The notes under the pieces are model-generated. The model saw only the letters and a list, made by a program, of their open reading frames with translations, had not been told where the DNA came from and did no database searches. Shown here in pieces: positions 33,715-37,133 of a stretch of 37,133 nucleotides of DNA; positions within the stretch are counted from its first letter, which is position 1, and each line of letters begins with the position of its first letter. Position numbers and translations under genes: made by a program. The stretch is taken from positions 8,317 to 45,449 of the forward strand of contig JAEMQZ010000004.1 of assembly GCA_016463595.1 (NCBI GenBank). Reading direction: 5' to 3'. The DNA comes from Synechococcales cyanobacterium SupBloom_Metag_052 (GTDB taxonomy: Bacteria; Cyanobacteriota; Cyanobacteriia; PCC-6307; Cyanobiaceae).

Positions 33715-34344
33715 TCAATCCGGCTCCACCCCCTTGAGGGCCCGCTGGGCCGCCCGCCCCGCCAGCCACACCGAACCCACCGTGGCCACCAGGCCGACGA
33801 TGCGCAGGCTCCAAGTGCCCAGGTCGGCCTTGCCGGAGAGGACCTCGCCAAAACGGGCCACATCACCCGCCAGGGCACCGAGGCTGCAGAACAAGACCGT
33901 ACCCGGCATGATCGCGATTAAGCCGATCGCGTAATCGCGCAGGCTCACCTCACTAAGGCCGTAGGCCAGGTTGAGCAAACTGAAGGGAAAGGCCGGCGAC
34001 AAACGGGTCAGGAGCACCAATTTGAGCCCCTCCCGGCTAACGGCCTGCTCAATCGCCCATAACTGGGGGACGGAAGCCAGGCGTCGCCGCGCCCAATCCC
34101 GCAACCAGTGCCGCCCGATCAAAAAGGACGCGATCGCCCCCAGGCTGGCCCCGACAAATACCAGGCCACTGCCAAAAAGGGAGCCGTAGAGGGCGCCCGC
34201 CAGCATCGAGGCCCACACCCCGGGCAGCAGCAGGGTGACCCAGAGGGCGTAGAGGGGAATGAAAACCGCTGCCCCCACTGGCGATTGCAACGCGGGCAGC
34301 AGCTGGTGCAACCAGCTGCCAGCAAGATCGGCCAACAGGGTCAA
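33715..34344 (-). CDS. TVP38/TMEM64 (DedA/SNARE-associated) membrane protein
   Basis: A 209-residue integral membrane protein with the VTT/DedA core: LLPGVWASMLAGALYG, FVGASLGAIASFLIGR, then LLTRLSPAFPFSLLNLAYGL and MPGTVLFCSLGAL. Five or six membrane segments are expected. These proteins are proposed lipid scramblases or transporters; the cyanobacterial role is unknown. The called start is TTG 34344, which has no ribosome site. In the same frame ATT 34368 (giving M-A-N-P-S-V-Q...) has GGGAG five bases upstream and seems better placed. No ATG or GTG exists between TTG 34344 and the upstream TGA. It is divergent from the LarA-like gene. Confidence 0.88.
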   Translation of the reverse strand: MTLLADLAGSWLHQLLPALQSPVGAAVFIPLYALWVTLLLPGVWASMLAGALYGSLFGSGLVFVGASLGAIASFLIGRHWLRDWARRRLASVPQLWAIEQAVSREGLKLVLLTRLSPAFPFSLLNLAYGLSEVSLRDYAIGLIAIMPGTVLFCSLGALAGDVARFGEVLSGKADLGTWSLRIVGLVATVGSVWLAGRAAQRALKGVEPD

Positions 34345-34512
34345 AAGCTGGACGGAAGGATTCGCAATGTAGTCTCCCGAACCTCAAAGTGGATGCAAAT
34401 TCGCCTAAGTTGGCGTTCCACATCCCAAGATCAAGCCCAAAGCCCTGAAAGCACCAAACAAAAATGTTTAACCCAACTCCTTACAATAACTCAACCCCTC
34501 GCTGAATTGAAA

Positions 34513-34535
34513 GCCTATCCTGACAAGGGATAGGC
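34513..34535 (+). promoter_or_regulatory. Leader hairpin 1, possible switch with 34544-34548
   Basis: Perfect stem GCCTATCC (34513-34520) / GGATAGGC (34528-34535) with a seven-base loop. Its right arm overlaps AGGCC (34532-34536), which can instead pair with GGCCT (34544-34548). The two pairings exclude each other, as in attenuator-type leaders. Confidence 0.35.
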
Positions 34536-34548
34536 CATCTGAAGGCCT

Positions 34549-34568
34549 TGGGTATCACAAGATACCCA
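34549..34568 (+). promoter_or_regulatory. Leader hairpin 2
   Basis: Perfect 8-bp stem TGGGTATC (34549-34556) / GATACCCA (34561-34568) with loop ACAA. It abuts the competing pairing just upstream. CAAAACC follows rather than a T-run, so it is not a standard terminator. It may be a DNA operator or an RNA leader element. Confidence 0.35.
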
Positions 34569-34679
34569 CAAAACCAGAATTTAGGTTTACAATTGTTAAG
34601 CGGCGGCATCAATCAATTGCCCGAGGCACCTTTTCCAGCCGCGCACTAATTCTTTCAATAATCTAATTAACAGTCAACC

Positions 34680-36644
34680 ATGGACTTGGGTCAAGCTCAA
34701 CAAATTAACCTTAAAAGCTACCCCAATAGCCAGCTGGAGCTCCCCCTTGGCGCCCAGATCCTGACCCCCAAGGATGGGCCGACCAAGGGCATCCCTAGGG
34801 AGCTCAGCCTGTCGAAACTGCGCGCGCACCTGTTACCCCTACTGACGCAAGTCTATGGGGGCCAATCGCAAAGTGATATTAGGGTGCTGTTGCTTTTACC
34901 CGATAAAACACGCAAGCAAACAGCGGCACGATTACTCATCGACACGATGATTGAACTTTGTCAATCCGTGCAGACGCTTTCCTTCGATATTATCTTCGGG
35001 CTGGGGACCCATCCGGTGATGTCCGATGGGGACATCGCAACCATGATTGGCCCCCAAAGGCTGGAACGCCTTGCCGCCCTAGGCACCACCCTGCAACAGC
35101 AAACAACCCTCAAACCGCTTGCCCAACGTCACATCACGATTCCACCACCACCCCAACTACTCGACGAACAAGCTGCAGACCAAAAGTCAAAAACGACCTG
35201 CCAAGGCCTGGACGAATCAAGCCGTTCAGAGTGCACAAGAATCGGTCTTCCTGCGGCGCTTTGGCATTACGATCACATTATTACCGGCGGCGATACGGAT
35301 CTGCACCCCTACGAGGGTCGTGCTGGCAGCGGTGGAATCAATAAAATGCTGGTAGTCGGGATCGGCTGCCTGCATTGCGTTCGCATCACCCATACGATGG
35401 AAGTTCTCTCCCATGCCCTTACAAGAACCGGCGAAGCTAATAACCATTTCGTAAAATTAATTGATCACTTTACAAAAGAGATTACAGCCCAACTAAGAGA
35501 TGGAACTGGCCGGCTAAAAGCCAATCCGCATGGCGTATCAGTTTTGGCCAAGATCACTGACCAGCCCGATTGCATTTGGGTTGGTGATCAAGACAAGAAT
35601 AGGGCAGTTCTGACGAAGCAACTGGAAATGGAGCGAACAGTCGCCCTCGATCAGCCGGTAAGCTTTGTGATTGTGGACACTGAACGTAGGAAGGCAACAG
35701 ATATTCTGGCAGGGGCAAGAAGCTTGCATTTTCTCTGCAGCTTTGACGATCCCACTAATCAACTTCTTTTGCGCCAGCCGGCCGGCCGAAGCGCGCTGAT
35801 GTTCAACGCCTGCCATGAAACTAAAAACTCCAATGGGATCGGCAATGCTGGAACCGTGCTGCATCTCAATGCCCTTCGCAGCTTTGTGCATGACTCCATC
35901 GCCGAAGCTCGGGATAGGGGCCTAATCCAGGCCAGCAGCGGACTCAGCGATAACAAACGACGTAAACTTAAAAAAGATATCCTTGGACGCTGGGAAGACT
36001 ACCTCCGGCTTGTCAGTAACGAAGACACTTTTTTCGCAAGGATTGAAAGGTTACTGATTGGCATTATCTCAACCGACACCAATACCCAAGAAAAAGCGCC
36101 ACTCCTTAAGGAGCTCGCCCACAATTTGAATGAATCCTTCGCCCATAGCTTTGGCAACCATCGCCATGTGATCACCGGAACCCGTCATCACTTTGCCAGC
36201 AGCGGCGCCCGTGACGCCCTTCGCTTTTTACAACAATCAACCCAAGCACTCGGCTTCAAAGGACTCGGCGAAGGGGGCCAAAGGGCCCTGCGCCTCTTAG
36301 TCATTCTGCAAAAGTTTGAAACATTATATATTGCAACGGACAATCAACATGTGCTGGACTTTCTCGTGGAGCTCAATCATCCCCCTGGGATATCCAATCT
36401 TGGTCAGCCAACAGACCAATCTCCAGCCGAAGCCGAGCCCAACATCCTTGGCCTCACAGGAATATCACTCAATGCTAACTCTCCTCAAGCGGCATTGGAA
36501 ATAGCTCTTGGTCGGCACTATGATCAAACGAAACCGCTTAATAGCAGCGAATTAGCCTTCATCCAGGAACCGGTGATTATCAAACGCAATCTCATCTCAG
36601 ACCTCAAAACAATGACACTACCCTTGACACCTGTTGCCGCTTAA
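34680..36644 (+). CDS. Enlarged LarA-like (DUF2088) protein, possible nickel-pincer racemase/epimerase
   Basis: A 654-residue protein whose first half matches LarA, the nickel-pincer-nucleotide lactate racemase. The match includes R78 in PDKTRKQ, H111 in GLGTHP, H209 and K222 in HPYEGRAGSGGINKML, and H238 in RITHT. K222 to H238 is 16 residues, the same spacing as the cofactor lysine and nickel-binding histidine of Lactobacillus LarA (K184, H200), so cofactor binding is plausible. LarA is usually about 420 residues; this protein has an insertion around 130-195 and a long helical C-terminal region of unknown role (about 400-654, with FGNHRHVITGTRHHFASSGARD). The substrate is unknown and may not be lactate. 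GC is lower than in neighbours and no ribosome site is clear. An AEC transporter follows 73 bases later. Confidence 0.75.
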   Translation: MDLGQAQQINLKSYPNSQLELPLGAQILTPKDGPTKGIPRELSLSKLRAHLLPLLTQVYGGQSQSDIRVLLLLPDKTRKQTAARLLIDTMIELCQSVQTLSFDIIFGLGTHPVMSDGDIATMIGPQRLERLAALGTTLQQQTTLKPLAQRHITIPPPPQLLDEQAADQKSKTTCQGLDESSRSECTRIGLPAALWHYDHIITGGDTDLHPYEGRAGSGGINKMLVVGIGCLHCVRITHTMEVLSHALTRTGEANNHFVKLIDHFTKEITAQLRDGTGRLKANPHGVSVLAKITDQPDCIWVGDQDKNRAVLTKQLEMERTVALDQPVSFVIVDTERRKATDILAGARSLHFLCSFDDPTNQLLLRQPAGRSALMFNACHETKNSNGIGNAGTVLHLNALRSFVHDSIAEARDRGLIQASSGLSDNKRRKLKKDILGRWEDYLRLVSNEDTFFARIERLLIGIISTDTNTQEKAPLLKELAHNLNESFAHSFGNHRHVITGTRHHFASSGARDALRFLQQSTQALGFKGLGEGGQRALRLLVILQKFETLYIATDNQHVLDFLVELNHPPGISNLGQPTDQSPAEAEPNILGLTGISLNANSPQAALEIALGRHYDQTKPLNSSELAFIQEPVIIKRNLISDLKTMTLPLTPVAA

Positions 36645-36662
36645 GCCGCAAGGATGTATAGT
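36634..36662 (+). promoter_or_regulatory. Predicted promoter of the AEC transporter gene
   Basis: -35 TTGCCG (36634-36639) and -10 TATAGT (36657-36662) with a 17-base spacer, matching the sigma-70 consensus at 4/6 and 5/6. The start point would be near 36669, about 50 bases before the ATG. The -35 box overlaps the end of the LarA-like gene, so the transporter could be transcribed alone as well as from upstream. Confidence 0.4.
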
Positions 36663-36680
36663 TAGGACAGTTTCACTTAC

Positions 36681-36700
36681 GTGCTTAAAGGGTGCTTAAA
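36681..36700 (+). repeat. Direct repeat GTGCTTAAA in the transporter leader
   Basis: Two exact copies, 36681-36689 and 36692-36700, 11 bases apart start to start, which is one DNA turn. They lie just downstream of the predicted start point. That spacing is typical of a regulator binding on one face of the helix, but no regulator is identified. Confidence 0.35.
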
Positions 36701-36717
36701 TCCTTTTGGCATCACCC

Positions 36718-37133
36718 ATGCAATCAATTCTTCAGATCGCTACCGCCGTTTACCTGCCGATTATTACCGCAGCCCTCGTAGGTGTTTTGCTCAGCTTGGG
36801 GCTGGCTCGCTCGGGTCGCATGGTGCGCGACCAGCCCGTTCAGGAATTGCTCCCTGATGTGCTGGCTCGGTTTCTCTATCTAGTTGGCATCCCAATTGGC
36901 GTTGCCAACTTCATCCGTAAAGCCGAATTCAACTCATCCGTTTGGATTTCGCCAGTCATCGCTTGGTCGGCAGTGCTATTGGCAATCTTTTTGAGCTGGC
37001 ACTTCTTAAAAGGCTCTGCCAAACCCCGCTCGAAAAGCACAAAAGCCAGTTTTACGCTCCTCAGCTACCTAGGAAATACGAGCTATTTAGGATTTCCTGT
37101 CATCTTGCTGCTGCCGCAACTAGGTCCCCAATA
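36718..37133 (+). CDS. AEC-family (auxin efflux carrier type) transporter, partial
   Basis: The frame starts at ATG 36718 and runs off the right edge with 138 complete codons. It begins MQSILQIATAVYLPIITAAL and has four hydrophobic segments in the visible part. The block LLSYLGNTSYLGFPVILLL is typical of the AEC family (TC 2.A.69), where the GNTxxLGxP segment is conserved. AEC carriers move organic acids such as malate or lactate and other anions (family knowledge), which would suit a hydroxyacid racemase next door, but the substrate here is not known. GC is low like the upstream gene. It is preceded by a predicted promoter and a nine-base direct repeat. Confidence 0.75.
   Translation, partial: MQSILQIATAVYLPIITAALVGVLLSLGLARSGRMVRDQPVQELLPDVLARFLYLVGIPIGVANFIRKAEFNSSVWISPVIAWSAVLLAIFLSWHFLKGSAKPRSKSTKASFTLLSYLGNTSYLGFPVILLLPQLGPQ

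Follow-up and report, generated by a model that had tools for sequence, protein, structure and literature searches.

An enlarged LarA-type protein in a cyanobacterial sensory cassette as a candidate user of the nickel-pincer cofactor

The nickel-pincer nucleotide (NPN) offers a puzzling picture in cyanobacteria. The LarB, LarE and LarC proteins of Synechocystis PCC 6803 produce NPN, which has been seen as an adduct of about 450 Da on LarALp, and LarA-like proteins are missing from most cyanobacteria (PMC11796402). As the cyanobacterial LarB, LarC and LarE yield a functional cofactor although LarA-like proteins are so rare in the group, Hausinger and colleagues proposed a non-LarA client of the cofactor (PMC11796402). 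The locus described here raises the question of whether a LarA relative of unusual size could be one such user, and for which purpose. The window, that is, the whole stretch of 37,133 nucleotides under analysis (G000:C78:8317-45449), comes from an incomplete genome in 151 contigs, for which MAGs of Synechococcus sp. UW140 are the nearest relatives with a name, and its features are collected in Table 1.

Table 1. Features of the locus, with positions in the window
Feature	Position	Strand	Evidence
VTT-domain membrane protein, divergent neighbour, outside the cassette	33715..34344	-	Pfam VTT_dom 75.8 bits
Upstream intergenic leader	34345..34679	+	Weak folding signal; alignment of five congeners
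14-bp perfect dyad GTATC-ACAA-GATAC	34552..34565	.	Sole window match; 4/5 congeners
Enlarged LarA-superfamily protein, 654 aa	34680..36644	+	ORF, Pfam, family alignment, profile-profile comparison
D75-K-T-R78 codons (LarA D72/R75; site for the NPN phosphate and the carboxylate of the substrate)	34902..34913	+	
H111 codon (LarA H108, acid/base)	35010..35012	+	
H209 codon (LarA H174, acid/base)	35304..35306	+	
K222 codon (LarA K184, NPN tether)	35343..35345	+	
H238 codon (LarA H200, nickel ligand)	35391..35393	+	
R347 codon, invariant, at the LarA K298 position	35718..35720	+	Profile alignment, family invariance
AEC (Mem_trans) carrier gene, 5' part, cut by the window end	36718..37133	+	ORF, Pfam, orthologues

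An initial annotation, made from the letters of the window, had recognised in the 654-aa protein the residues R78, H111, H209, K222 and H238 of the nickel-pincer site, and the LarA signature is indeed complete (D75xTR78, H111, H209, K222, H238), with all of these residues invariant in the 12 aligned members of the family at identities down to about 30%. The LarA spacing between lysine and histidine, also claimed, was found as well, with 16 residues as between K184 and H200 in the L. plantarum LarA; the second catalytic histidine stands 13 residues before the lysine, not 10, a distance likewise found in the NPN isomerases of group 22. Conventional searches gave faint signals for this protein, which reached 20.7 bits for the Pfam Lar_N domain (cut-off 23.3, exceeded at 26-37 bits by several enlarged homologues) and matched PDB chains weakly (E of 0.82 with the single sequence, 0.01 with a profile). 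The best score against the NCBIfam equivalogs of characterised LarA subfamilies (lactate, malate, hexonate and LarAH10) was 24.1 bits for a cut-off of 500. In a profile-profile comparison, the enlarged family matched a canonical LarA profile, built from L055, TM0443, Mar2 and LarALp, with E=1.5e-11 over 260 columns, and an alignment of LarALp and Mar2 alone with E=1.3e-6, while reversed, column-shuffled and unrelated-family controls remained at 0.3-0.85. The alignment pairs D72xTR75, H108, H174, K184, H200 and the K298 position, and runs colinearly beyond the region of Q295 and K298, where the enlarged family carries an invariant A344 in place of Q295 and R347 in place of K298. Taken with the invariant site and with the cofactor genes described below, this comparison supports the LarA-like identity first proposed, and places the 654-aa protein within the LarA (DUF2088) superfamily as a divergent member.

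The enlargement of about 230 residues over LarA was borne out, and its location could be partly redrawn. The insertion that had been suspected corresponds to a segment of variable sequence that separates the two catalytic histidines, before the second one, whereas the long C-terminal region, formerly considered unassignable, appears to contain the C-terminal domain of LarA, interrupted by a helical insertion. An AlphaFold model, computed from an alignment of only three sequences, had a pLDDT of 31. As to whether the enlarged form constitutes a clade, it groups separately from the four canonical sequences in our tree, on long branches. Proteins of this type, 604-777 aa in length, occur in 9 of 390 cyanobacterial genomes, besides congeners of the window genome and G027; the family was not found in viral contigs, and a plasmid search with the proteins of the window and of Synechocystis-type genomes gave no match.

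The window genome encodes the machinery for the cofactor, as a search for larB, larC and larE revealed (LarB at 250.9 bits for a cut-off of 175, LarC at 402.9, LarE at 264.7 for a cut-off of 150). LarC turned up in all genomes tested, whether or not they encode a LarA-type protein. The congener G003 shows LarC and LarE together with a LarB match of only PurE level, possibly owing to an incomplete assembly. A role of the enlarged family as NPN client for cyanobacteria in general was discarded, given its 9 genomes in 390; as any LarA-type protein was detected in only 12 of these 390, the enlarged LarA is not the general answer to the client problem.

The carrier gene reported downstream was confirmed, and a larger context emerged. 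Separated from the LarA-like gene by a short gap, the AEC gene scores 21.6 bits for Mem_trans in its window fragment and is completed in the contig beyond (locus L025 7023-7859, which contains Ns), and a full-length orthologue reaches 86.7 bits (L026 9176-10240). Its start is likely the ATG at 36718, since the TTG at 36706 adds four residues missing in most homologues. Beyond the last position of the window, the operon goes on with a solute-binding protein (SBP_bac_8; it has an LLASC resembling a lipobox and a cysteine that is invariant in five orthologues), a dCache membrane protein (34 bits, where the Pfam cut-off is 45) and a Cache-like sensor with a class III cyclase. The LarA and AEC pair first noticed thus only opens a larger sensory cassette, which has relatives across cyanobacteria. 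The VTT gene and ligA mark the locus in the congeners (synteny in G001, G002, G004 and G005); the contig of G003 stops within the VTT gene, so that absence of the cassette cannot be claimed there.

The same anatomy with swapped outputs recurs in G005, G027, G180, G248, G289 and G395, and several families maintain the gene order although their proteins are only about 33-45% identical. The partner of these genes in G027 is a sensor with HAMP and PP2C domains, and in G180 they stand with a protein with a cyclic-nucleotide-binding domain and two dCache proteins. The association is looser elsewhere: G099 keeps only the AEC gene next to the enlarged protein, and in G185, G219 and G159 this protein lies apart from the AEC/binding-protein locus. 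The sensory part, for its own part, can do without LarA, because G251 contains a cassette of AEC, binding protein, dCache protein and cyclase without any LarA. In another genus, G033 has a binding protein and a cyclase sensor between ligA and VTT (L091 1297-6142), as in the neighbourhood of the window, and in a plasmid of Nostoc NIES-3756 a 40% identical binding protein adjoins a hybrid histidine kinase and a response regulator, with no LarA or AEC among the genes listed for that region (L081 7273-12503).

The nature of the ligand can be approached through the enzymes that occupy the LarA position in other cassettes. Of the 390 cyanobacteria, 87 have a member of the binding-protein family, among them all 12 with any LarA-type protein (p=8e-9, counting genomes without correction for phylogeny). 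A canonical LarA fills the slot in G041 (best NCBIfam match, hexonate epimerase at 143 bits, under its cut-off), a group 22 NPN isomerase above the curated cut-off does so in G256, and in G141 and G174 the place is taken by a D-2-hydroxyacid dehydrogenase, accompanied by a HAD phosphatase. Each of these enzymes has an AEC carrier, the binding protein and a sensor with dCache as its neighbours, the sensors of G041 and G141, the two scanned, being hybrid histidine kinases. Since various enzymes of 2-hydroxy acids share a single slot, we argue from these gene neighbourhoods, which represent few independent lineages, that the ligand of the cassette would be a 2-hydroxy acid or a sugar acid. The cassettes of G141 (L128 4714-12873) and G174 (L129 4923-13115) also include an SDR dehydrogenase and run, without a break, in the order SDR dehydrogenase, AEC, D-2-hydroxyacid dehydrogenase, HAD phosphatase, binding protein and sensor. 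In G041 (L124 2674-10308), the neighbours of LarA and AEC are genes of Gfo/Idh/MocA type together with xylose-isomerase-like and shikimate-dehydrogenase-like ones, a hint that the substrate there may be a cyclic or sugar acid. Another arrangement was seen in G052 (L126 4572-6425), where an NPN isomerase of group 22 bears a fused GGDEF (diguanylate cyclase) domain at its C-terminus and is followed by an AEC carrier.

Altogether, we consider it probable, from sequence and gene context, that the 654-aa protein is an NPN-dependent racemase or epimerase of 2-hydroxy acids or sugar acids, coupled to transport and signalling. The LarB, LarE and LarC proteins of the host would make the NPN carried by the enzyme, with K222 as its tether and H238 as nickel ligand, whereas R78 and R347 would hold phosphate or carboxylate groups. 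With H111 and H209 as acid/base pair, a 2-hydroxy acid or sugar acid might then be racemised or epimerised at C2 by proton-coupled hydride transfer. The AEC carrier would move the acid across the inner membrane, in a direction that we can only infer, and the lipoprotein-type binding protein and the dCache protein, presumably acting together, may sample it outside. Finally, the membrane sensor with its adenylate/guanylate cyclase output could report the acid to carbon metabolism, a task for which other hosts would use PP2C and partner switching.

A different view of the same cassette, which we regard as unlikely, is that the enlarged protein acts as an intracellular hydroxy-acid receptor, NPN-dependent or NPN-derived and perhaps of slow turnover, and that its additional helical region passes a signal on to the cyclase or PP2C pathway. 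Signalling proteins do lie in nearly every contiguous cassette, about 100-150 extra residues are partly predicted as helical, the substrate-binding residues are altered, and the GGDEF fusion of G052 joins an NPN isomerase to a signalling domain. Nevertheless, both catalytic histidines, the tether lysine and the nickel histidine are kept invariant, as in a working catalyst, cassettes with AEC and sensor exist without LarA, and the slot can be filled by canonical enzymes. More improbable still is a LarA fold that has lost NPN and serves other chemistry or binding; the strong divergence, the replaced Q295 and K298 positions and the sub-threshold Pfam score of the window protein would fit such a loss, but NPN-binding and acid/base residues would hardly stay fixed across 12 members, in tested hosts where LarB, LarC and LarE co-occur. 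That a low-GC block of unrelated genes was recently acquired by horizontal transfer, with LarA and AEC as chance neighbours, is very improbable in spite of the block's GC3 of about 0.5 against about 0.82-0.87 in the host, the low GC also seen in G027 and Synechocystis-type genomes and the patchy distribution, because gene order is constant at the identities given above, the LarA and AEC trees each place G027 with the window genus, and a partial cassette sits between ligA and VTT in G033.

The base composition itself was correctly described at the outset: the LarA-like gene has a GC content of 0.515 and a GC3 of 0.54, below the 0.61-0.70 and 0.73-0.87 of the other genes of the window. The structured leader announced upstream fared less well, as the folding of the whole region is weak (MFE z=-1.64, with 6 of 100 shuffles equally good) and an Rfam search gave no match; the idea of a strongly structured leader RNA finds no support in the folding. 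What stands is a conserved 14-bp dyad, GTATC-N4-GATAC, which occurs once in the window (0.11 occurrences being expected if one mismatch is allowed) and is retained in four of five congeners although the surrounding stretch changes fast, a possible operator or hairpin.

A further context for the cassette is found in G248 and G289. There a STAS gene, a PP2C sensor and a HATPase gene come first, followed by the genes for the enlarged LarA, AEC, binding protein and dCache protein; in G248, the genome checked for it, a further STAS gene and an isoamylase stand ahead of them all. At 155 of 157 positions the PsaL of G248 is identical to that of PDB 4L6V and 5OY0, entries of Synechocystis PCC 6803, and on this protein G248 is very probably Synechocystis or a close relative. 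The icfG gene cluster of Synechocystis, slr1856-slr1861, has a published arrangement that agrees with the genes ahead of the cassette (PMC12329169); the phenotype reported for icfG concerns growth at low CO2 with glucose. The genes after slr1861 were not discussed in the icfG literature that we found; by their position in G248 and G289, those of the cassette should be slr1862-slr1865. Next to a predicted LarA-like slr1862, the products of slr1863-1865 would presumably be the AEC carrier, the binding protein and the dCache protein. One of the three point differences between the GT and PCC lineages falls in slr1865 (PMC10068330).

As the cassette lies behind the icfG operon in Synechocystis-type genomes, the enlarged LarA becomes a candidate user of the nickel cofactor in cyanobacteria, most of which have no known user. 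Such a LarA-type candidate is easily missed because of its length and score, yet it is present in Synechocystis-type genomes, and it bears on two questions, the cyanobacterial client of NPN and the input signal of the icfG operon. Only tentatively, and with more doubt than confidence, we advance a broader idea in which the enlarged LarA would be an NPN user, enzyme or receptor, dedicated to an organic-acid sensing cassette that is widespread in cyanobacteria, and slr1862 both the NPN client of Synechocystis and the metabolic input to the IcfG/SigC pathway of carbon regulation.

In comparison with known systems, the enlarged family shares with the LarA superfamily (LarALp, Mar2, LarAIp, TM0443) the NPN-site residues, their order, the lysine-to-histidine distance of 16 and, as far as the profile alignment goes, a colinear two-domain layout. 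It differs in length (604-777 aa, against about 420 for LarA), in the insertion before the second histidine and the helical insertion in the C-terminal domain, in an HPYEGRxGSGGINK loop, in a second-histidine loop three residues longer, and in the change of Q295/K298 to A344/R347. The NPN isomerases of group 22 (NCBIfam NF052515) have the same distances of 13 and 16 and, in G256, occupy the same cassette of AEC, binding protein and dCache, but their core is of about 390-430 aa and their direct profile similarity to the enlarged family is weak (E=0.02). Regarding the signalling part, membrane sensors with HAMP and SpoIIE-type PP2C, as in SiaA/RsbU-type partner switching, adjoin the cassette in G027 and Synechocystis-type genomes; beyond such systems, the cassette has a carrier and a binding protein as well as an NPN-type enzyme. 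Lastly, the STAS-isoamylase-STAS-PP2C-HATPase composition of the icfG cluster (PMC12329169) directly precedes the cassette in G248 and G289 (the isoamylase as checked in G248), whereas the window genus lacks this gene order beside the cassette and carries a cyclase sensor instead.
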